From assembly GCF_033473495.1 (NCBI RefSeq), contig NC_088942.1:1178001-1242000 (forward strand): a DNA stretch of 64,000 bases, given 5' to 3'. This DNA is from Cercospora beticola. Its lineage: Eukaryota; Ascomycota; Dothideomycetes; Mycosphaerellales; Mycosphaerellaceae. The notes beneath the pieces were generated by a model that searched no databases, was not told the origin of the DNA, and saw nothing but the letters and a program-made list of their open reading frames with translations. The translations under genes and the position numbers were made by a program. Positions 22,686 through 47,967 of this stretch are shown piece after piece (positions within the stretch are counted from its first letter, which is position 1; each line of letters starts with the position of its first letter).

Positions 22686-25200
22686 CTATATCAGTTCGCC
22701 CTCTTCATCCTCATCAGGCCACTCATCTTCTTCGTCTTCCATTGCCTTGGCAGCCTCCTCTGCCTGCCTCTGCACCTCCGCCAGTCCACTGACTTCTTCC
22801 ACGAAGCCCCGTTCATTCATTGCCCGCTTGACAAAAGCCCATCCGTCTCGCTCGTAAGCTCCTAGAATTTTGGGCGAACAGGCAGAACAGCAATCGTAGG
22901 CCTTGCCCTTGATCTGCAGCGTTTGCCAAGTCGACATGTACCCGCGAAGCTGGTGTGGAACTGTGCCGAGAGGATGTGAGTCCGGTGATTTGGGGTCCGT
23001 GGGAGGTGCTGATGCGATAGCTGTTGATGTGGGAGGCTGTGATGCCGGTGCAAAGCCTTTCAGTCTATGTTGTGTCAGCGAGACAAGAAGTTCGACTGCA
23101 AGTGCTGATGCGATCGGAGCTGCTCCAGGTCTCGTCACTGTACATTGCTGGTCGAGGGTCGCAGACTTCTGGCTATCCGCCGGTGCCACCACGTCAGAGC
23201 AGAAGTAGCAGCTGAGCTCATCTGTCTGGGTGGCAACAGCACTCGTGCCATTTGACGGTATGCCTGCAGCAGTCTTGAGTGGATCCGGATCGTCGGCAGC
23301 CTGTATTGTGACTGTGCTCTCGTCTCCACCTTCTGTTGAGGGTCGCTCCCGCATACCATGTCGCATGACCATATACGAGTCGAATCCGAGTGCTGCGTTG
23401 ATGACAATCTTGCCTGCTGTCTTGCCCATGACGGTCGGTAACCATCTGGACTCGCGCGAGTCCATCAACAAAAAGATGGCATCGTGAGCATCGATTAGCT
23501 TCTTAAGCTGCTCGTACTGTCTCTCAATCTTGGTCTCATCGCCGATAATCGGATGCCCTGCCATGGGAACACTCAGCACCACGCCTTCCGCGTCGATGCC
23601 AGGATAAATCTCGTGCAACATGTCGGCGGCCCTCTGAGCTTTGTAAACTCCGCCACCTTGGCAATCTTTAAAGTCGTAGAGCGGCTGTCGCACAGGGTTC
23701 GAGTAGCTGACGCGACCGTTGTCGATGAAGGTAATCTTTCGCACGCCCCAGCCCATCAGGTTTCGTGCCACATACGCTCCCAAGGTTCCTGCCCCGAGCA
23801 GCAGACATCTGGTGCTCTTGATCGTGTCCAGATCGATAGACGGCGCTATCCGCCACTTGATGAGTTTGAGGTTGAGATCCACGGCTTGATCCGCAAGTCG
23901 TGAAGGGTCAAGATATGCCGCCAAGTCCACTGTTCGTGAAGCGACCTTGTTCTGCTCAGCACGTTCCCATCCTGTGACCTTGGGGAATTTGAGGGCTTTC
24001 TCCGGTGGAGGCCGTATTGGCAGCTCCTTCGAGTCCGCTTTCCGTTCGACTGGCTCCTCCACGATTAGTTCGCCAAATTGATCGACTTGACCGGGCAGTA
24101 GTGCGGACGAGCCACTCATCTCCGTCAACTTCTTGAGCTGGTCCTCAGCAGCAAAGTCGTAAACTGGCTCTGAGGTTTGCAAAGTCATGATTAATGATGT
24201 TGGCTTGTCTCGTCTCGCATGCGTGTCTCTGTAGCTCAAGATCTGGACTTTGTCGAGATGCCATCTCTGGCGCACCAAGACTAACAGATTTCGCAGCATC
24301 CACCCTGGGTTTGCTGGGAAGGTTGAAGGGTCCGCGAAGCAAACATAACAATCCTCTGGTCGAGCGTTCTTGAAGAATCCCGTCTCATAGCTGCTGAGCG
24401 GGCCAACCCACCACAAGAAGCCTAGCTCACTCAGACTGGAAGATCGTGTACTCTTCTTTCTCTTCGAGCATAGATTCCCGTCCTCTTCCTCTTCCTCCAC
24501 CTCACCCCACCCTCTCTTCCACTCTTCCTCGAGCACTGCCTTTCGTAATCGCTTTGCCAGGAAGAAGCCGTGTTGTCTGGCATCCACGCTATACCTCCAC
24601 GTCTGCACTGCATCCACAAGTAATGTGGTTTCTTTCGATTCGAGCTTCGTCATGGCAGCGTCTGGATTGTTGTTTGGCGCGACCATGCGCCATTGTGGGT
24701 CTGAGTGAAGGGCAGGATATGCGAAATGGTAGGTGAACTTGTACTTCTTGAGATCGGCGAAGCAGAGAGCTGTGAAGGAGCACAACAGCGATGGGCACTC
24801 GTAAATAGTTCCGTCTCGAATGGCGTCCCAGATCATCCGCCCAGCTCGCTCGATGTGTGCAGCCTTGTCGACCTCTCGGAACTCCTCCACAGTATTGAAG
24901 TTCTTTATCAGGCCCTCGGCGCGGTAAAGTCCGTTGGGTGTTCTGAGGCCCATCAGCATGTAACCCTGCTCTCCTTGTGTCTACTCCCACCACCTACTCA
25001 TCATTTGTAAGCGCCGAGCCGTGTATCTGCATCCTCGTACTTCGCTCAGGCGCATCCGAGTGCTTGATCTCGTACAGGCCGAGCACCTTACGCGCGGAGG
25101 AGTCAAGTTTGTCATGGTTGATCTTCAGGGAGGCGAGGGCTGAGTAGAAAGCGAGTTCGACGTCGGTCGTCCATGGCGCATACTGCAGCGGTTGTAGCAT
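22686..25200 (-). CDS. atg7: Autophagy E1-like enzyme ATG7
   Basis: It activates the ubiquitin-like proteins Atg8 and Atg12 by adenylation and a thioester, then passes them to Atg3 and Atg10. Exon 1 (25200-24998) and exon 2 (24942-22686) are joined over a 55-nt intron with a CTGAT branch site. The splice, in phase 2, gives [17 protein letters not shown], matching the usual Atg7 N-terminus. The adenylation domain has the glycine-rich [21 protein letters not shown] and the nucleotide-binding [15 protein letters not shown]. The active-site Cys lies in QQCTVTRPG. The acidic C-terminus ([16 protein letters not shown]) follows the Atg8-binding region. At 819 residues it is longer than typical Atg7 (~700), through low-complexity inserts. 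The ATG at 24959 lies inside the proposed intron and is not the start. Confidence 0.95.
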
Positions 25201-25801
25201 GCTGGCGGTGGTCGTGAGGGGTCGTTCGGAGGATGTTGATGGTATTCGGTTCACGGAGGAAGGTCGTCGCTGGGTCAGTAATCAAGGAGGAAAGTCATCA
25301 GAGACGTATCACGCGATGGAGAGTGTCGAGATGCCGGTCACGAGACAGTGCCTGCTAATGAAGCCGGAGCTGTCGAGTGCTCCTGCCGCGTGAGCTGCTT
25401 CCCTGTGCCGTCGTTCCTGCAGAAGCGGGGCAGGCCCAGGCTAAGGAAGGCTCGAGTGATGAGTTGACTCGTGCATCCGAGTGTTGAACCCTGATGGAAT
25501 GAGATCCGGCGACAAGAGACAGTGAACAAAGACAGCCTCCCACCTGATCTCGCAATTGTGAAGCTGTACAGCTGCTTGTCGAGCTCGTGAGCTGGTTCAT
25601 CGCCGGACGTCACGAAGCCGATCCGTCTGCCCTGCAGCTTCCCGCTCTCCGCGTCGCGTCTCACAAAGACGCGCTAGTAAACTCAAAATCGACGTGCCAT
25701 CTTCTGCTCCTGGAGATGTCAAGATGAACAAAGAAATCACAAAACATCCCAAGTCATATGTCGCGAGAGACCATTGCTGTGATAGCACTACATAGCTGAC
25801 A
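25201..25801. other. Divergent promoter region atg7 / dCMP deaminase
   Basis: Six hundred bases between two divergent genes. An inverted pair of CGCG-core sites (CGCGTC at ~25655 and GACGCG at ~25669) lies ~130-145 bp before the deaminase ATG. These resemble half-matches to the MCB element and might give S-phase expression, but neither is a full ACGCGT. Confidence 0.4.
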
Positions 25802-27040
25802 ATGCTCATCGGAATTTGCGGAGGTATACTTCACCTACACAGCACACAACGTTTACCGCCAGCTCACACTTATGCTTCAGGTATATGCTCAGGCAAGAAT
25901 TCCGTTCTCGACTATCTTGTGCAACGTCACAACTTCCAAGTCCTCACACTGTCCCGAAGTACTACGACACCAAGTGTAGAAAAGTCTGCTTCAGAAGCAC
26001 ACGTCCCATCGAACCACCTCCATCCCGGCACAACTTTTACCAAAATCGAGGACCTTCTCGACTATGCCACAAAATACTGGCAAGAGAATTTCGTCACGAC
26101 TTCAATACACGATGAGTCAGTCCTTGATGTCTTGACAAGGCGCCCGTTCTTCATTCTTGTCCACGTAGACGCACCAATTTCAACGCGCTGGGCACGTTTC
26201 ACCAACAAATGCATCCAAGCGAGCTTGACTCCTCCGACGCTCGAACAATTCGTCATCCGCAACGATGCACATCTCTACGACACATCGACAAACCTCGCAA
26301 CAGTAGCAAGCAGAGCCCAGATAAAACTCCTAAACTCAACTCCGTCATTACCAAAACTCTGGGCATCACTCGATGCCCTCAACCTCACAGACCCGAGCAG
26401 AATCCGTCCAGCATGGGACCACTACTTCATGACACTTGCATCTCTCGCCGCCCGAAGATCAAATTGCATGCGGCGACAAGTTGGCTGTGTCTTAGTCCGA
26501 AACAAACGAATCCTTGCCACAGGCTACAATGGCACGCCGAGGAACATCAAGAACTGTGCAGAAGGTGGGTGTCCCAGGTGTAACGGTACTGGAGCTACCG
26601 GACTGTCTGGAGGTGCAGATCTGAGTACTTGTCTCTGCATTCATGCAGAGGAGAACGCTTTGCTCGAGGCTGGGCGGGAACGTGTGGGCGATGGAGGAGT
26701 GTTATATTGCAATACATGCCCTTGCTTGACATGTACAATCAAGATCGTGCAGGTGGGCATCACGGAGGTCGTCTACAGTCAGAGCTACTACATGGACGCC
26801 GAAGCGGCCAAGATCTTTCAGGAGGCTGGCGTGAAGTTGAGGCAATTCAGTCCGCCGAAGGAGGGTTTGGTGGACTTGGATCGGCAGTGGGAGGACTTGG
26901 TAAAGACTGGCAGATCACCGAGACGGACAGGGAGGTTGGGCAATGTGGAAAGTTGGACGCATGGAGTATTCACTGTGGAAGATGGAGGGGAGGCTGCGGC
27001 TCCGAAAACGAATGGCGTAGCGCATGCACAACATGACTGA
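25802..27040 (+). CDS. dcd1: Deoxycytidylate (dCMP) deaminase
   Basis: It converts dCMP to dUMP, supplying thymidylate synthase. A 22-nt first exon and the main exon (25881-27040) flank a 57-nt intron with donor GTATAC and acceptor TTCAG. Splicing gives 393 residues beginning MLIGICGGICSGKNSV, the P-loop-like N-terminus seen in fungal dCMP deaminases. The intron has no stop and is a multiple of three, so an unspliced mRNA would simply insert 19 residues into that loop. The zinc-binding deaminase core has CIHAEENALLEAG (His plus catalytic Glu) and CNTCPCLTCTIKI (two Cys ligands), with a preceding CPRCNG. The C-terminus is extended and unremarkable. It points toward the TBC gene, with the small RNA array between them. 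Confidence 0.95.
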   Translation: MLIGICGGILHLHSTQRLPPAHTYASGICSGKNSVLDYLVQRHNFQVLTLSRSTTTPSVEKSASEAHVPSNHLHPGTTFTKIEDLLDYATKYWQENFVTTSIHDESVLDVLTRRPFFILVHVDAPISTRWARFTNKCIQASLTPPTLEQFVIRNDAHLYDTSTNLATVASRAQIKLLNSTPSLPKLWASLDALNLTDPSRIRPAWDHYFMTLASLAARRSNCMRRQVGCVLVRNKRILATGYNGTPRNIKNCAEGGCPRCNGTGATGLSGGADLSTCLCIHAEENALLEAGRERVGDGGVLYCNTCPCLTCTIKIVQVGITEVVYSQSYYMDAEAAKIFQEAGVKLRQFSPPKEGLVDLDRQWEDLVKTGRSPRRTGRLGNVESWTHGVFTVEDGGEAAAPKTNGVAHAQHD

Positions 27041-27567
27041 TCGCATATAGGTCTATGGAACAATCGAAAACATTCCAAGACCTGCACGTGAGCCGCAAAC
27101 CAGGATATTGAGTCCCACTGTTTCGCACAATATTGCGGCCCGCATGCCCGCCTGCCATTGCCCGGGGGCAAAGCATCGGGATCGGTATCGCTCGTCAGGC
27201 ATTGGTCTCCGTGGCTGACCGCACACAACGGTACGCCTTACTCGCGCACGAACGCTTCTCCGAGGACATGTCTCTTCGCGGAAGAGACTTACCAAGCTCT
27301 ACCAACGAAGGCGTCAGTATCAAGAAGAGACGAACTGTGCCATGTCTCGCGATGCCAGCTGTTATCGAAAAGACAATATAGCCAAACTTCGAAGGGGAGG
27401 CAATCTCGACGAGTCATTGAGTGCCAGAGGTAGCAAAACATCATCCACTACGTTGCCCTTCATCGAGAAATTACGGCTTGGAACAGAAACTCGCAAGTCC
27501 CCACCTCGCTTTGTCAGAACGACTACGACCTAACACAAAATCATAAGAGAATTGTCAGCTCTGGGAC
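27041..27567. other. 3' flank of dCMP deaminase before the RNA array
   Basis: About 500 bp without a recognisable gene, ending where the first RNA unit's T-run begins. Confidence 0.5.
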
Positions 27568-27730
27568 AAAACAATCGTTCTCGGCTTGCGTGAAAGACGC
27601 AAATTGGCATGATAACAGCCTATGCTAAGCTGTTTATCGGCAACCGTCATCCATCAATGCGTCAAACACTGACTTATTTGGCAAGCTGGCGATTTACTGA
27701 CTTGACCACTTAGCCAGAGAAACGATCGTT
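27568..27730 (-). ncRNA. Putative Pol III small RNA, unit 1 (last in minus-strand order)
   Basis: The predicted RNA is 163 nt. A TATAAA-type motif (CATATAAA, plus-strand reading) lies ~23-30 bp upstream. The A-box-like element TGGCTAAGTGG matches the tRNA A-box consensus exactly, and the B-box-like block is GTTTGACGC. The stem AACGATCGTT / AACGATTGTT continues with CTC/GAG after one bulge. The T-run is only four long, the weakest of the set. Confidence 0.55.
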
Positions 27731-27828
27731 AGGAGATCAGGGTTGAACACAACATATAAAGGTTATATTTATGTCCCTAAGAATGAAAAGAAGAACGGAA
27801 CAATCAAGCAGGAATGGTGTTAGAAAGC

Positions 27829-27995
27829 AAAAAGCGATCGAGCCCCTGCGAAATGATTGCCGAGAGGTTGTCTGGCACCGAGAGCCTCTAATCTGGTCTT
27901 GAGTCATACATCCATTGCTCGGAGACATCAAATACCTGCCTTTTTCACAAGCTGGCGAATTACTGACTTGACCATCTAGCCAGGGAACGATCGTT
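27829..27995 (-). ncRNA. Putative Pol III small RNA, unit 2
   Basis: The predicted RNA is 167 nt with a T5 terminator. It has the best TATA box (TATATA at about -25 to -30). The A-box-like element is TGGCTAGATGG and the B-box-like block ATTTGATGT is weaker. The stem uses a 3' CGATCG that pairs in full with the 5' CGATCG, so the G-T pair is G-C here, with one bulged C and two mismatches. Confidence 0.55.
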
Positions 27996-28078
27996 GAAAG
28001 AGGTAGGAATGGATATTGTATATAAGCATTCAATGTCCAAACAGTCAGGCAGCAAAAGAAGTGAAGCATAGCAAGAAC

Positions 28079-28243
28079 AAAAAAACGACCAGCCTCCAGC
28101 TAGACAGACCACGGGAGTCAAGACCATGTACAACGAAGCCACTGCAGTTGTCGAAGGTACGACACCATTAGGTCGGAGCATCAAACGCTAGCCTTGAAAC
28201 CAGCGATTTACCGACTTGACCACCTAGCCAGAAACTGATTGTT
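28079..28243 (-). ncRNA. Putative Pol III small RNA, unit 3
   Basis: The predicted RNA is 165 nt with a T7 terminator. The 5' arm is AACAATCAGTTTC rather than AACGATCGTTCCC. The 3' arm is changed to GAGGCTGGTCGTT, keeping all but one of the pairs: G-C and T-A of other units are replaced here by A-T and G-C. This is the clearest covariation in the array. The A-box-like element is TGGCTAGGTGG; the B-box-like block is GTTTGATGC. Confidence 0.6.
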
Positions 28244-28331
28244 AAGAAAACATGGTCCAAGATCGATTGTAAACACTGAGCGGCCATCTCGAGACCGCAA
28301 AAGAAGAACGCGAAAGTGGTTGACATGCAGC

Positions 28332-28504
28332 AAAAAACAAACCGTTTCCCAGTCAGGATAGCACACATCATTGGACTGTTCTGGAACCGTGGTCTATTTA
28401 AGACTCGAGGCAGCCAAGAAAGTTATACTGCAGCGTCAAACGCAAGCTTCTTCAATAAGCCGGCAATTTACTGACTTGACTATTCTGCCAGGTGAACGAT
28501 CGTT
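28332..28504 (-). ncRNA. Putative Pol III small RNA, unit 4
   Basis: The predicted RNA is 173 nt with a T6 terminator. A TACATAAA motif (plus-strand reading) lies ~21-30 bp upstream. This copy's core has diverged most, yet its A-box-like element TGGCAGAATAG still fits the consensus TRGYNNARNNG exactly. The B-box-like block is GTTTGACGC. The terminal stem needs one bulged T and has two mismatches. Confidence 0.55.
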
Positions 28505-28616
28505 AAAGAAGAAGCATTACAGCTCATACATAAAGATCTCCCAACGCCGTTCACATGCCACAAAGAGCCCATGAGTTGAGGTCAAACGAAAAATGTTGAA
28601 GTGAAGCAAAAGAAGT

Positions 28617-28788
28617 AAAAAACAACCGTTCCCCAGGGAGGAGAAAGGCCAAGTATGGGTGCACAATACGAGCTCGCAATGGACTTGTAGTTTGTGAAAC
28701 CAAGTCTGCCAGAGCGTCAGACACCGGTACTCTTCGAAGTGAGACTGGTGATTTACTGACTTGGCCATCTAGCCAGGGAACGATCGTT
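28617..28788 (-). ncRNA. Putative Pol III small RNA, unit 5
   Basis: The predicted RNA is 172 nt with a T6 terminator. The TATA position holds a weaker TATGTG-like sequence (plus-strand reading). The A-box-like element TGGCTAGATGG is present, and the B-box-like block is GTCTGACGC. The terminal stem AACGATCGTTCCC / GGGAACGGTTGTT is continuous and can extend to 16 bp. Confidence 0.6.
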
Positions 28789-28893
28789 GATCAACCGGCA
28801 CACAGTTCGTATGTGAAGGTCACCTACTACCAGTCAGTAAGTAGCCTGAACAGCTGAGAAGACAAAACGGCCTGAAGTTACGCAAAAGTAAGC

Positions 28894-29049
28894 AAAAACA
28901 ATCGTCCCCCAACAAGAGACTAATGGCCGCGCTCCACAAATTCAAACCCGCAACAGGCTTGAGACTTGCGAACCCAGTGAGCCATATGATCAAACACTAG
29001 CTAACCAGCGATTTACTGACTTCACCATCTAGCCGGAGGAACGATCGTT
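28894..29049 (-). ncRNA. Putative Pol III small RNA, unit 6
   Basis: The predicted RNA is 156 nt with a T5 terminator. A GTATATG motif lies ~22-28 bp upstream. The A-box-like element is CGGCTAGATGG and the B-box-like block GTTTGATCA. The terminal stem pairs AACGATCGTTCCTC with GGGGGACGATTGTT over 14 positions without a mismatch. A T-A pair replaces the T-G of other units. Confidence 0.6.
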
Positions 29050-29158
29050 GAAAGGCCGGCGCGTTAGTAGGTATATGAAGATCTGCAGCCATGCCAAATA
29101 AAGCTATATGTAAAAGGTCCGACAGATGGGAAAAAGTCGAAGCGAGGCAAAAGGTGGC

Positions 29159-29313
29159 AAAAAACAACCGCTCCTAGACTGGAGAGTAGCCTTGGTAATC
29201 TCAGTGTCCAGCTCCTATGCGCTCGAGATGTGTAGACAAACAAGCTGAAGCGTCAAACACCAGGCAGCCTGGCGGTTTACTGACTTGACCATCTAGCCAG
29301 AGGAACGATCGTT
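29159..29313 (-). ncRNA. Putative Pol III small RNA, unit 7 (first in minus-strand order)
   Basis: The predicted RNA is 155 nt. A TATA-like CATATG lies at about -24 to -29. The A-box-like TGGCTAGATGG lies near +15, and the B-box-like GTTTGACGC ~30 nt after it. Six Ts end the unit. The 5' AACGATCGTTCCT pairs with the 3' AGGAGCGGTTGTT throughout. Here the 5' CCC of other copies is CCT and the partner GGG is AGG, a compensatory change. Confidence 0.6.
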
Positions 29314-29345
29314 GGAGCAGCATGGCTGGGAATGGCATATGAACG

Positions 29346-29596
29346 TTGATCTATCGCCTGTGAGACGGACTTGATCGCTCAGTTCGCGAGAAGAGAGGCG
29401 AAAAAAGAGATAGGAGCATTGTTGTGCACATCATCAATTGATTCCAACGGCGAGATGCCGTGTTCGTATTCGTACCTTGCTTTCCATCCCATCTTCTCTG
29501 ATTCCACCCTAGCAGCATACCAAGGGTATATCCATCCCAGCGTTTGCTTCTGTCTTCATTCCCTCCCAAGAGCCGTTCATGACTTCGGGTTGCATT
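29346..29596. other. 3' flank of the TBC GAP gene
   Basis: About 250 bp between the RNA array and the GAP stop codon; nothing recognised. Confidence 0.4.
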
Positions 29597-31539
29597 TCAC
29601 AACTGCAAGCCTCTCCCGCCCTTTCCTTCCCCAAGCACGCCTTGACTTCCCTGCCTGACGTGCGCTTTACTCCCCGCAAACAGGCTTTTCCAGATGAAAG
29701 CCTCACTCAGCAGCAATTCCACATCCTTCTCTGTCCAGTCTTTCGTAGGCAAAGACTGTAGAAACATCATGATCTCCTGGAAATCCATTTGTTGTAGACG
29801 ATCCGACCATTTGACCAGAAACGCTGCGCAGACGTATAAGTGGAACGCTGAGAAGCCTTGATCTTCGGCCTAAGCAGAAAAGAAAGTTTAGTCAGTAGTT
29901 GTTGGATGAGAAGGGAGGAAGGGAAGCTCTTACAAGATATGTATCCCACATCCGAATAGTATTCCTCACGGAAATTTCCCGCATGAGGAGGCAATTCATC
30001 CATCGAAAGGAGAATTGAATGAACTCCACTCCTTCATTCTCCATGTGTTTCGCTAACCCGCCATCGATGCGCGCTGTCAAATCTCGTAGTTGCGCGACTT
30101 GTCTTTGAATTCCAGGTTGGGCGTGAATATAATTATCTTGAATCCCATCAAGAAGTTTGGTCAGACACCAGAATGAATCAGCCTCGACTGCGTCCAGCAC
30201 AGCTTTCGGTAATTGGCCAGGATCCATTCCCGAGTCGACTTCGGGATCTGTGATGTACTGTCCCAAAAAGACCTGCCAGAACGGCGTCACAAGATCGTTG
30301 ATGCCTTGCACGTAACCGGATGCGGGATGTCGAATGGCCCATACATACAATATTCGTTCCAGTGATCGCTGTGTGGCCTCGTAGCTGTACAACTCTAAAT
30401 GTGGATTCGTTCGAGGGACGTCGATACTGATCTGATGCCAGATGGCTTCATCAAGACCTCGCCCGCCCACCCGAGGAGATTTAGGTGAAGTAGGCATGTC
30501 TGCCGACCTGTCACCCCGCTCGAAAGCTTGCCTCACTCCATCGAGGTACTCTTTCCGCTTTCGTTCCAGTGTGGCGACACGACGCTCGGAGCTTGTGGGA
30601 AGATAGCCTAGCAGCAGCTGCCAGGTCATGGCTCGCACTTCAGGAGGTAGACCTGACCAGGCAGAGTCTCGCAATTCAGCCAGATTGACCGAGGATGCTT
30701 GCAGTATTCGCTTGAACTTGTTTATTCGCGTGATTCGTGCGGAGTGTGCCTCGGCCTCTTTTGCTGCCGCATTCGGCGGTAATGAAGGATGCGATATCAG
30801 GTGGAGTGAGTTGGCAGGATCTCGGAGGATTTCCTTGTATTGTGGTCGCAAGATCTTCTGTCCCTCCGTGCTCTTCTTTAATGACGGGTAGGCTGGTATC
30901 TGAGTGCGCATCTCTGCCATGTCGCCATTGTCCATTGCCCATGATGCGGAAGACAGCGAAGTCGCGCCCCCATTCCCAGTCAGTGCCCCGCCGAACTGCT
31001 TGCTGCTACTGCTGCTGCCTTTGCCTAGCCCTCCCCCTGGATCCTTGGCCTTCGCTTTTGATAATCGCTTGTTCTTCCTTCGCATAGACGCTATGCTGGG
31101 CAGGCCGAACTCATCTTCATCGTCCTCCTCCAGACCGAATGCGTCGCCATCGTCGTCATCGTCGTAGGCATTGCTCGACTCGGCCAGGAAGGAGGAGTAT
31201 TTGGGTCGCGTTGGCGGTGATCGCGTGTTTCCAGGCGAGGGCGTGTTCTTACTGTTGCGGGGATCGGTGGGCGGTGTTCGTGGTCGATCGTTGCCAGAGA
31301 GGGATCTACCTACATGCATGAGCGCATTGTCGCGAGAAGTGGCTCGATGCAGCGTACAGTTGATTGAAGTTCAGGATATCGGCATGGCTGTAGGACGCTC
31401 CAATGACCTTGCGCGTTGTCGGCTCGGGCGTGTCCGCGTTTGGGGTGGTAGAGGGGTTATTCGCATTGTGGCTGCTGCTGCTGCGATTGCTGGTGGCCGA
31501 CGTGGATCGCCAGAAGGGAGACGTAGTGCTGCTCCACAT
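29597..31539 (-). CDS. gyp1: TBC-domain Rab GTPase-activating protein (Gyp1-like)
   Basis: It accelerates GTP hydrolysis on Ypt/Rab GTPases, probably at the Golgi. Three exons (31539-31358, 31305-29934, 29869-29597) give about 608 residues. The last intron has a CTACTGAC branch site and joins WDTYL to AEDQGFSAFHLYV. The TBC domain (~residues 270-570) has the dual-finger motifs: the arginine finger in IDVPRTNP and the glutamine finger in GYVQGINDL. The N-terminus is Ser/Pro-rich with an acidic patch. The first exon (MWSSTTSPFW...) and its 52-nt intron are inferred from phase matching. A start at 31319 inside the second exon (MHVGRS) is the alternative. The Gyp1 assignment over other TBC proteins rests on overall layout. 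Confidence 0.87.
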
Positions 31540-32089
31540 CAGTTACGATGTAGTCAGAGTGACTGAACAGACGCCAACTCACTCGGTGCGGTCTATGAAG
31601 GCCCAAATGTCCATGTCAGCGGCCGGTCTGGTAATAACGTGGGTGGCTGCGAGCGTTGGTCGGCGGGTGGATGAGGGCGCGACACGAACCGACCTGGACC
31701 ATCTCCTGCTGCGACGCCGTTAGATTTGTCGGAATTGGAAGAGAGGAGTTGGTCAGAAGGGACACACCTGGTGGGAGGGCTTTCTGAAGTTCATGTTCAT
31801 TGTGACAGCAGACAGCGACTAGCAGAAGACGTCGGCTTGAAATCGAGATGATCTTCCCAATGCAGCCAACATCTGCTTCCCCATCTCGTGACGCATTAGC
31901 GTGCAGGTGCTGCGTCCTCAGGCACCGCTCACCCGCCGCTGACACAAACTGCAGCTTCCGCTTTCTGCACCACCACCACTCCACCCACCGCACCCACCTC
32001 GTCCACTCTCTTTCATCGACACCACCCGCATTCCTCCTCGCATCTGCGACATCCTCTACCGCGCATCCTCACTCCGACCCGCCGCGACC
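31540..32089. other. Divergent promoter region gyp1-like / hrp1-like
   Basis: About 550 bp between two divergent genes. Open frames on the minus strand (31616-31993) do not resolve into a protein I recognise. It may also hold an untranslated exon of the GAP gene. Confidence 0.4.
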
Positions 32090-35000
32090 ATGGCCGAGCC
32101 GGGCATGGACGACGAGGATCTCTTCGCTGATCTGTGAGCCCGCCCGCCGACCTTCCACCTCCCGCGCGCGACACTGACTGCTATTAGCTACGACGGCGAC
32201 GACACCGCAAACGACGCGCCCGCTGCGCCCACCAAGACCGAACCCGCACCACAAGCTGCTGCTGATGCCGATGCTGCGGCTGCGGCTGCCGCTGATGATT
32301 TCCTCAACCAACAGGCCGCAGCGCCGACAGTCGAGTCACACCAGGGCAACGGCGCCAGCGGTCATCAAGAGCAGCAGCCTTCGTACGATCAGAACATGGG
32401 CAATCAACATACCGAGTACAGAGATCCGACTCCGGACAATAGGCCCCTGATCGGAACCAAGGAGGATGGGTAAGTATATCTCCTTTCTTTCATCTGCCTT
32501 CTTCTGCGCGGCGTGAGCAGCGGTGAGCTTCATCTACTCAACACTGGTATCTCTGAGGCCTACGGCACGTGATTATTGAAATCGAGTGCGATGCGAGAAA
32601 GATGTCAAGCGTAACACAGTTGAGAGACAAAGCGCAACGTCATGCGACGAATCTCAGTCGCTTCCACTTGAGAACGGCAAATCGGCTCGTCCTCAAGAAG
32701 AGAGGCGACGAAGACTGCAAAGTTCAACTGGTGTTCTGTCAACTGGTGACGCACATGCACCGTGCATCATGTCCTCATCAGCCAAACATCAAATATTCCG
32801 GAAACACATTACCTGGAAAAACCATCGCGTCGACGACTGAACAATCTTATAATGGAGGGGTCGGATTCTGGGATGGACAAGGATGATTTCAGCCTCGCAG
32901 ATATTGAGTCGCGTCAGATACTTGGTGCACATTGTTGCGTATCTTGGCAGACGAGGAAGCCGATATATACTGGATCATGATCACACTACCATACTACAGC
33001 CTTGATCGTGATTGCTCGAAGGGAGGAAAGAGGGGCCGAATCAGGATCGCAAGTACACAACACAGAACAGCGATGATAGCTTCAAGCCAATAACCTCGCC
33101 TCAAGCGACAAATAGCAGATCATGCAGACAGACAGGCAGTCATCATCATCATCGTCAGAGAGGAGATAGCCGATGTAGCTATGCAGCCGCGCCAATCTCT
33201 GCCACGCCTAGACGTGCGCACATGGCCGGCCTTGATAGCATGCGTTCAGCTTGAGAAATCGAAGACGCGCAAGAGCGAGAAGATATACTACTGCTGCATA
33301 CCTCAATCGCCATCGTCGATGATGAAAAGGGAATTCTTTTCCTTTGGACAAAGTTCATGGTCGTCGGCTACCCCACATGGCTGGCTGGCATGCTGGCATG
33401 AGATGGCTTCCCGCACGCTCGTATCGTGCCTCCGCGGCACGTGCGACAGCCACAACCTCAATGCAATACACGCCGCTCTCGTCTTACGATGACATGACGG
33501 CCTGGTCTGCCGTCAGCAATGCAACGCACTCTGGTCCTGTCGCCCTACGTCCCTGAGAGATGCGGAAATCTTTGCTTGGCAAAATCTGTGGCGACTTGTT
33601 CCGGAGATCAACTGGGCATAGATGGTGTTGGGGGCCGGACGAACGCACTAACGCCAGCTCACGCTCACGCCGCGCTGTACTTTACCATTATATTCACGCT
33701 CAGATAGCTAACAATATGCCTGTAGAAAAATGTTCATCGGAGGCCTTAACTGGGAGACGACTGATCGTAAGCATCAATCCACGTCATGTGTCCAATCTAC
33801 ACAGCGTTTTAACAAATCATCACAGAGTCTCTTAAAGACTACTTTTCTCAATTTGGAGAAGTCGTGGAATGCACTGTCATGCGTGACGGCGCAACAGGCC
33901 GCTCTCGAGGTTTCGGTTTCCTCACCTTCAAGGACCCCAAGACGGTCAACACAGTCATGGTCAAAGAACATTCCCTCGACGGCAAACTTGTAAGATTATG
34001 CAACGATGTTCCCCTTTTTGCAACGACTTGTCGTGTCAAGCGCAAGACGAAAAGAAGTAAAAGAAAGAAGCCTAACACAACTTGTACATTACAGATCGAT
34101 CCCAAGCGTGCTATCCCTCGCGACGAACAGGAACGTACGGCAAAGATCTTCGTTGGCGGTGTCTCACAGGATGCGACAGAGCAGGATTTCGAAGCCTTTT
34201 TCCAGAAGTTTGGTCGTGTGCTCGATGCCACGCTCATGATGGACAAGGATACCGGACGACCACGTGGTTTCGGATTTGTGACGTTCGACAACGAAATGGC
34301 TGTTGAGCGCACCCTCGAGGGTCCACTGGCCATCCTTGGTAAGCCCATCGAGGTTAAGCGCGCTCAGCCGCGTGGCAAGATGGGCGAAGAAGAAGGCTCT
34401 GGCGGCCGCGGCGGTTTCGGTGGGCGTGGAGGACGTGGCGGTGGCGGCTTTGGCGGCGCTGGTCGTGGAGGAGGCGACGGTGGATTCGGGGACAACAACC
34501 AGATGGCCGGAGGTCCAGCTCAATCCGATGGAAACGCGAACCAGATGACGCCTGCCATGATGGCACAATACTGGCAACGCATGCAGCAGTATTTTGCTCA
34601 GATGCAAGCTATGCAGCAAGGAGGTGGCATGAACCCCATGATGGGCGGCATGAACCCGATGATGATGCAGCAAATGCAAGCTATGCGTGCTGCTCAGCAA
34701 GGTGGCGGACAGATGAATCCGGCCATGATGCAGCAAATGGCTGCCATGCAGGGTGGTGGCGGCGGCGGCGGCTTTCCCAACTCACAGTCTCCCATGAACG
34801 GCGGTATGGGACGCGGCGGACCAGGCAGTGCCGGAGGAAACGGTAACGGCAACAACAACGGCGGTGGTCAGCAAGGTCAACAAGGTGGCTTCACCGCTCA
34901 AGATCAACTCATGTTCGAACAACAGAAATATGAACGCCAAACCATGGCCCGCATGCAAGGACAGAACTTCGGAGGCCAGAACACCTGGGATGGAATGTAC

Positions 35001-47537: not shown

Positions 47538-47967
47538 AATCTCAACAATACTGTTGATGGTAGGTTGCCAAAAATTCCCAGCCGATCCGAAGACCAACTG
47601 GAGCAGTCAGTTGATAGTTTTCAACTAGCAAAAACGCAATCTCGGACGAATCCTCACTGATATGCGTAATGCCCTTGCACTCGGATGAAGAAGAAAAGAA
47701 GGAGGAAGCGGAGGTTGGACAACCTTTTTGTGCTGCGGATTCGTTAGCGCCGGCAGTGGCCGCATTAGCTAAGCAGAGTTCTGACTCATCACATGGCTGC
47801 CTGGCGAAGTGACGGGCTCGCCATCAATATGGCTGTCAAATATTGAACGGAACACGCTCGTCGCGAAACATCCGACGCGAACTTCACATGCGCGAACCAG
47901 CGCAGCAACCAGTCTCGTTCCGTTGCCTGCAATCTGTCCAGCGCACACTGTCGCGCATACCATCAAG

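Follow-up and report, generated by a model that had tools for sequence, protein, structure and literature searches.

Introduction

A 64,000-nt stretch of the Cercospora beticola genome, here called the window, contains seven short tandem units on its minus strand that a first-pass annotation described as copies of a small RNA gene of RNA polymerase III (Pol III) type. The question raised by this locus is what the units encode, and whether the proposed gene layout and RNA structure stand up to comparison with the host's own Pol III genes. To our knowledge, there has been little exploration of what filamentous fungi transcribe by Pol III apart from tRNA, 5S, U6, SRP and RNase P/MRP RNAs. An Rfam-negative, multicopy, structured family with a promoter matching the TATA spacing of the host SRP and U6 genes would, if the reading is true, represent one of two things, a previously unknown Pol III RNA-protein particle or a cluster of Pol III precursor genes for microRNA-like RNAs (milRNAs).

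An array of seven units

The minus strand between 27568 and 29313 consists of seven tandem units, each 155–173 nt long and spaced 248–285 nt apart (Table 1), confirming the positions and lengths of the first-pass annotation. We named the units u1 (highest coordinates) to u7 (lowest), and took the first A of the AAC at the start of each unit as +1. The array is flanked by two ORFs in convergent orientation, encoding a dCMP deaminase and a RabGAP-TBC protein, and ATG7 lies beyond the dCMP deaminase as seen from the array. The dCMP deaminase next to the array is 94% identical to a protein of Cercospora kikuchii.

Table 1. Coordinates in the window of the units, their predicted elements and the flanking ORFs.
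Feature	Position	Strand	Remark
Unit u1	29159-29313	-	predicted transcript 155 nt
Unit u2	28894-29049	-	predicted transcript 156 nt
Unit u3	28617-28788	-	predicted transcript 172 nt; P1 unbroken over 16 pairs
Unit u4	28332-28504	-	predicted transcript 173 nt; weakest copy
Unit u5	28079-28243	-	predicted transcript 165 nt; altered 5' arm and matching 3' arm; without a good TATA hexamer
Unit u6	27829-27995	-	predicted transcript 167 nt
Unit u7	27568-27730	-	predicted transcript 163 nt; T-run of 4, the shortest of the seven; sole A-box score in tRNA range
TATA-like CATATG, u1	29336-29341	-	at -28
TATA-like CATATA, u2	29072-29077	-	at -28
TATA-like CACATA, u3	28810-28815	-	at -27; 1 mismatch
TATA-like TATGTA, u4	28527-28532	-	at -28; 1 mismatch
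TACAAT, u5	28266-28271	-	at -28; 2 mismatches, the miss among the seven
TATA-like TATATA, u6	28019-28024	-	at -29
TATA-like TATATG, u7	27753-27758	-	at -28
A-box-like element, u1	29289-29299	-	TGGCTAGATGG
A-box-like element, u2	29025-29035	-	
A-box-like element, u3	28765-28775	-	
A-box-like element, u4	28480-28490	-	
A-box-like element, u5	28220-28230	-	
A-box-like element, u6	27972-27982	-	
A-box-like element, u7	27706-27716	-	
P1 5' arm, u1	29302-29313	-	
P1 3' arm, u1	29163-29174	-	runs into the T-run
P1 5' arm, u5	28232-28243	-	
P1 3' arm, u5	28084-28095	-	compensates the altered 5' arm
dCMP deaminase ORF	25796-27040	+	
RabGAP-TBC protein ORF	29892-31370	-	

A 23-base core of the units, allowed up to three mismatches, had seven matches in the 36-Mb genome, all within the array: three exact, two with one mismatch, one with two and one, u4, at the three-mismatch limit of the search. 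The reversed core pattern had no match in the genome. BLAST of the genome with u1 recovered, besides the query, four of the six other units, and with u5 it returned only u5. By the core pattern and these two BLAST searches there is no dispersed copy in the genome, a result of limited sensitivity because BLAST misses known sister units, so that strongly diverged copies elsewhere could escape detection. Within 8 kb, a covariance model built from the seven copies gave the units 125–141 bits, and the next match, on the opposite strand of u3, had 11.8 bits. An eighth, diverged copy in 24500–32500 was considered and rejected, as the best other same-strand match reached only 6.2 bits (E 0.51) with filters off.

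The array had no match to any Rfam family at the gathering score and only two sub-threshold matches at E ≤ 10 (16.8 and 16.2 bits); the same tool recovered the U4, U6 and SRP RNAs of the same genome as positive controls. The earlier remark that no named RNA with this sequence is known holds for Rfam families over the gathering score. ARAGORN found no tRNA in the window. None of the ten longest of the 22 ORFs overlapping 27500–29400 had a Pfam match at E ≤ 0.001, on which ground a protein-coding origin was rejected; one sub-threshold Pfam match (E 0.065) lies in an ORF outside the units. No relative was found in IMG/VR or in prokaryote genomes, viral and prokaryotic collections whose silence means little for fungi, and among the open-access literature matches listed there was no description of such an array. 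A search for RNase P RNA gave no match, and its controls gave none either.

Unequal conservation along the units

When the seven copies were aligned, mean pairwise column identity was 0.80–0.83 over columns 1–46, with 0.80 in the 5' arm of the terminal stem described below and 0.82 in columns 26–46. It was 0.69 in the block proposed as a B-box and 0.51 in the 3' arm of the stem. The 3' interior of the units showed 50% pairwise identity as compared with 47% after shuffling, bearing out the earlier observation that the sequence between the blocks has diverged, and the spacers showed 52% as compared with 48%. Since the 5' part is about 80% identical while the 3' interior is near random, the 5' part of the unit looks constrained, and its retention amid randomised interiors is, in our reading of the alignment, probably the best sign of function. 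Columns 26–46 lie beyond the A-box-like element, and their conservation is therefore not explained by known promoter elements alone.

Putative promoter and terminator elements

The hexamer pattern [CT]ATAT[AGT], used here for a TATA-like element, is based on two genes of the same genome, the SRP gene with CATATG at -28 and the U6 gene with CATATA at -31. Six of the seven units carry a match to this pattern at -27 to -29, one mismatch being allowed; four of them have no mismatch, whereas u5 has two mismatches; the TATA-like motif previously ascribed to all units is thus upheld for six and not for u5. Such hexamers occur at 3.5% of random starts in the rest of the window and at 6.3% over the minus strand of the array. 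When the 60-mers upstream of the seven units were shuffled, 0 of 5000 rounds reached six in seven, a figure to be read in the light of the units being paralogues, so that the seven TATA matches are not seven independent trials. In the tRNA reference set, made up of the 27 nuclear genes among 30 tRNA matches after exclusion of three mitochondrial-like ones, the stretch from -45 to -20 contains such a hexamer, again with one mismatch allowed, in 19 genes (null 23%) and a mismatch-free one in 13 (null 2%).

Every unit has an A-box-like element, the first base of which is +14 or +15. We scored it with a matrix built from the 27 tRNA genes, to which these genes also contribute when they are themselves scored. 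Six of the seven units score above the 95th percentile of background, and u2 is at background (p 0.18); u7 alone falls in the tRNA range, the other six lying below all 27 tRNA genes. Of the two host references, the U6 gene has a low A-box score (1.3) and the SRP gene has 11.7 bits. The exact consensus match earlier reported for two units, numbered 1 and 4, was recovered and corresponds to u7 and u4 in our naming.

The internal B-box fared differently. The block GTTTGACGC, or a variant of it, is present in the units and had been proposed to serve as this element, but within +41 to +100 none of the seven units scores above background (p 0.16–0.65). The B-boxes of the 27 tRNA genes of the same genome score 7.8–18.3 bits, and no site in 27300–29800 reaches the lowest of these, the best having 7.1. 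With no unit above background and no site in this interval at tRNA level, we rejected an internal B-box. The B-box-like block may instead be one strand of a hairpin, P3, a tentative assignment considered below. The host SRP gene has an internal B-box (8.4). In the host U6 gene (L006, C2:3146896-3146997), the best B-box (11.1) lies about 105 nt past the T-run, the arrangement of yeast SNR6.

All seven units end in a T-run, of 6, 5, 6, 6, 7, 5 and 4 residues in u1 to u7, in agreement with the T4–T7 run claimed before. No unit body contains a T4, and T4 or longer runs occur in all six spacers; the lack of an internal T4 was also seen in 664 of 5000 random sets and is thus weak evidence by itself. 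By eye, several units are followed by another short run of T residues (CTTTTGC or the like), for example at 29147–29153 and 28606–28612. Such a run, also noted by eye, comes after the SRP gene and a number of tRNA genes as well, and it resembles a backup terminator. Taken together, the proposed Pol III layout stands for three of its parts, a TATA element with the spacing seen in the host's U6 and SRP genes, an A-box-like element and a T-run, but not with respect to the internal B-box.

A terminal stem and a tentative hairpin

The first 12–18 nt of a unit are able to pair with the bases right before the T-run, forming a terminal stem that we call P1 and that the first-pass annotation had overlooked. 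In each unit, the pairing between the first 30 nt and the last 42 nt was set against that obtained after dinucleotide shuffling of the 3' end; of 1000 shuffles, 2, 8, 0, 81, 0, 9 and 2 were equally good for u1 to u7. An end-to-end stem next to the T-run, as looked for in a precursor of the Neurospora milR-1 type, thus beats at least 991 of 1000 shuffles in all units except u4. The ensemble probability that columns 1–12 pair with the 3' end is 0.71–0.96 across the seven units. Only in u3 does P1 run through 16 pairs without a break; in the other six it contains bulges or mismatches. In u5, three double changes preserve the pairing. The unit's own 3' arm is the best of all seven for u5 and u3; in the remaining five, a 3' arm taken from another unit pairs equally well or better.

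Folding of the whole predicted transcripts gave z values of -1.62, -4.91, -3.67, -0.11, -2.97, -1.02 and -3.91 for u1 to u7. It is clearly unusual in four units, each equalled by no more than 1 of 300 shuffles, and not clearly so in u1, u4 and u6, for which 15, 129 and 46 of 300 shuffles, respectively, were as good. Among the reverse complements, only that of u3 is equally unusual (0 of 200 shuffles), and none of the six spacers shows a folding excess (z -1.17 to +1.13).

For a consensus structure of 24 pairs, 91.1% of cells in the alignment can pair, a level reached by 15 of 500 shuffles, and versions of the structure slid along the alignment gave 30–55%. Its number of double-changed pairs was reached by 66 of 500 shuffles, and its number of pair types by 270 of 500. 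When the extended P1 is considered alone, the share of pairing cells is 85.7%, which 92 of 500 shuffles attain, and its double changes, all of which come from u5, were reached by 28 of 500. The covariation term of RNAalifold is -0.83 of -20.88. Covariation support is modest. In the inner hairpin P3, the B-box-like block forms the 3' strand, and pairs are kept in 100% of cells in the outer helix and 88% in the inner helix; thermodynamic prediction returns the inner helix in five of the seven units and the outer helix in one. Based on the shuffle and ensemble results for these helices, P1 is well supported and P3 is tentative. The suggestion of a multicopy structured non-coding RNA is accordingly supported in part: the units are multicopy, and they are structured at least in the terminal stem.

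Six units, u1–u4, u6 and u7 but not u5, begin with the perfect palindrome AACGATCGTT, which has no other occurrence in the window. For a sequence confined to six unit starts, a role as a DNA-binding site or in RNA-RNA pairing is also conceivable.

A predicted RNA family and its rivals

On balance, we consider it probable that the seven units are a predicted Pol III-type gene family for an undescribed, structured RNA of ~165 nt, likely to bind protein. What can be read directly from the sequence are the units, the TATA spacing, the position of the A-box-like element, the T-runs, the ability of the two ends to pair and the difference in conservation between the 5' and 3' parts. In the predicted course of events, Pol III would use the TATA element at about -28 together with the A-box-like element, and TFIIIB placed by the TATA element would initiate at or near the AAC. 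The transcript would end within the T-run and its ends would pair as P1, leaving a short U tail. Short U tails of this kind are targets of the La protein. The 5' arm and the region following it, perhaps partly as hairpin P3, may form a domain that holds a protein partner, and the seven copies could supply dose. By analogy with the Y, vault or 7SK RNAs, a scaffold or decoy role would be the most likely kind of action. A more specific version, which we put forward tentatively, is a lineage-specific fungal RNA-protein particle whose RNAs, from a seven-gene Pol III family, would have paired ends and bind protein through a conserved 5' domain. Such a particle would be a counterpart, in kind and not by descent, of the Y, vault or 7SK RNAs.

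Y RNAs are small Pol III RNAs with paired ends, an oligo-U tail and several paralogues side by side. The likeness of the array to them is one of layout only (paired ends, U tail, adjacent paralogues), because no TROVE/Ro60 domain was found in the genome, in a search whose control was positive in 1 of 14 genomes; Y RNA membership was rejected for the same reason, and the array has no Rfam Y RNA match. Vault RNAs have an internal A-box, paired ends and clustered paralogues, but the array has no Rfam match and no B-box above background. The major vault protein family MVP (PF01505) had no match anywhere, the controls being equally without a match. With the U6 gene of the yeast SNR6 type, which has a TATA element at about -30, an A-box-like element and a T-run, the array has all three in common, and it differs by having no B-box at or above 7.8 and by an unrelated RNA. 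Similarly, the host SRP gene resembles the array by its CATATG at exactly -28, an A-box near the start and a T-run, but differs in its internal B-box, its single match in the genome and its RNA, which is unrelated.

The main rival is a milR-1-like precursor. The array would then be a cluster of Pol III-transcribed hairpin precursors of microRNA-like RNAs, the stem of which would be cut by Dicer and one arm of which would enter Argonaute. The pri-milR-1 of Neurospora crassa, also a filamentous ascomycete, is an intergenic RNA of ~170 nt made by Pol III from a TATA-like-dependent promoter with no predicted A or B box, and in milR-1 to -4 a T-run comes right after the milRNA (PMC3547838). The lengths of our units and a stem that abuts the T-run agree with this layout, the C. 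beticola genome carries four Piwi and two Dicer-dimer loci, and the 5' arm is better kept than the 3' arm, as for a guide strand. The array differs from milR-1 in its seven tandem copies, its A-box-like element and its conservation past the stem. This conservation, through columns 26–46, would not be needed by a duplex precursor, and the interruptions of P1 in all units but u3 also speak against one, so that we regard the milRNA reading as rather unlikely.

A different view is that the array acts as DNA, its TATA and A-box-like elements gathering TFIIIB and TFIIIC to form a boundary between the RabGAP-TBC and dCMP deaminase genes, with the RNA as a by-product. Pol III elements serve as boundaries elsewhere, and the convergent orientation of the two ORFs would suit such a role, but the B-box is the main TFIIIC contact and no unit has one above background; moreover, neither the terminal pairing nor the conserved columns 26–46 would be necessary, and we find this view improbable. 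The same low standing is given to the idea that the units are decaying remains of a tandemly amplified tRNA-like gene or SINE. It draws on the A-box-like element, the degenerate B-like block, the parts lost in u4 and u5 and a D-arm-like pairing of columns 14–18 with 41–45 that is kept in 97% of cells, but this pairing was equalled by 214 of 500 shuffles and has an ensemble probability of 0.0 in all seven units. A tRNA or SINE origin was rejected, as there is neither an ARAGORN tRNA nor an Rfam tRNA match at E ≤ 10, and no dispersed copy was found by the searches of limited sensitivity described above; nor would plain decay be expected to keep the 5' part and randomise the 3' interior. Finally, a chance or compositional repeat with no function is hardly credible, considering the phasing of the TATA-like elements and the wide gap between the scores of the seven copies and of the next match, obtained with a model built from these copies.

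Other RNA genes in the window and genome

Apart from the array, the window contains a U4 spliceosomal RNA gene at 47550–47686 on the minus strand (101 bits to RF00015). The three mitochondrial-like tRNAs excluded from the reference set (L026, L034 and L037; C2:3502591-3503121) are AT-rich and clustered on a 5.2-Mb contig, and they are possibly a mitochondrial insertion. Among the tRNA loci listed (L014–L043), a subset of those in the genome, 19 of the 27 nuclear matches are 81–171 bases long, and introns (or long variable arms) therefore seem to be common among them.
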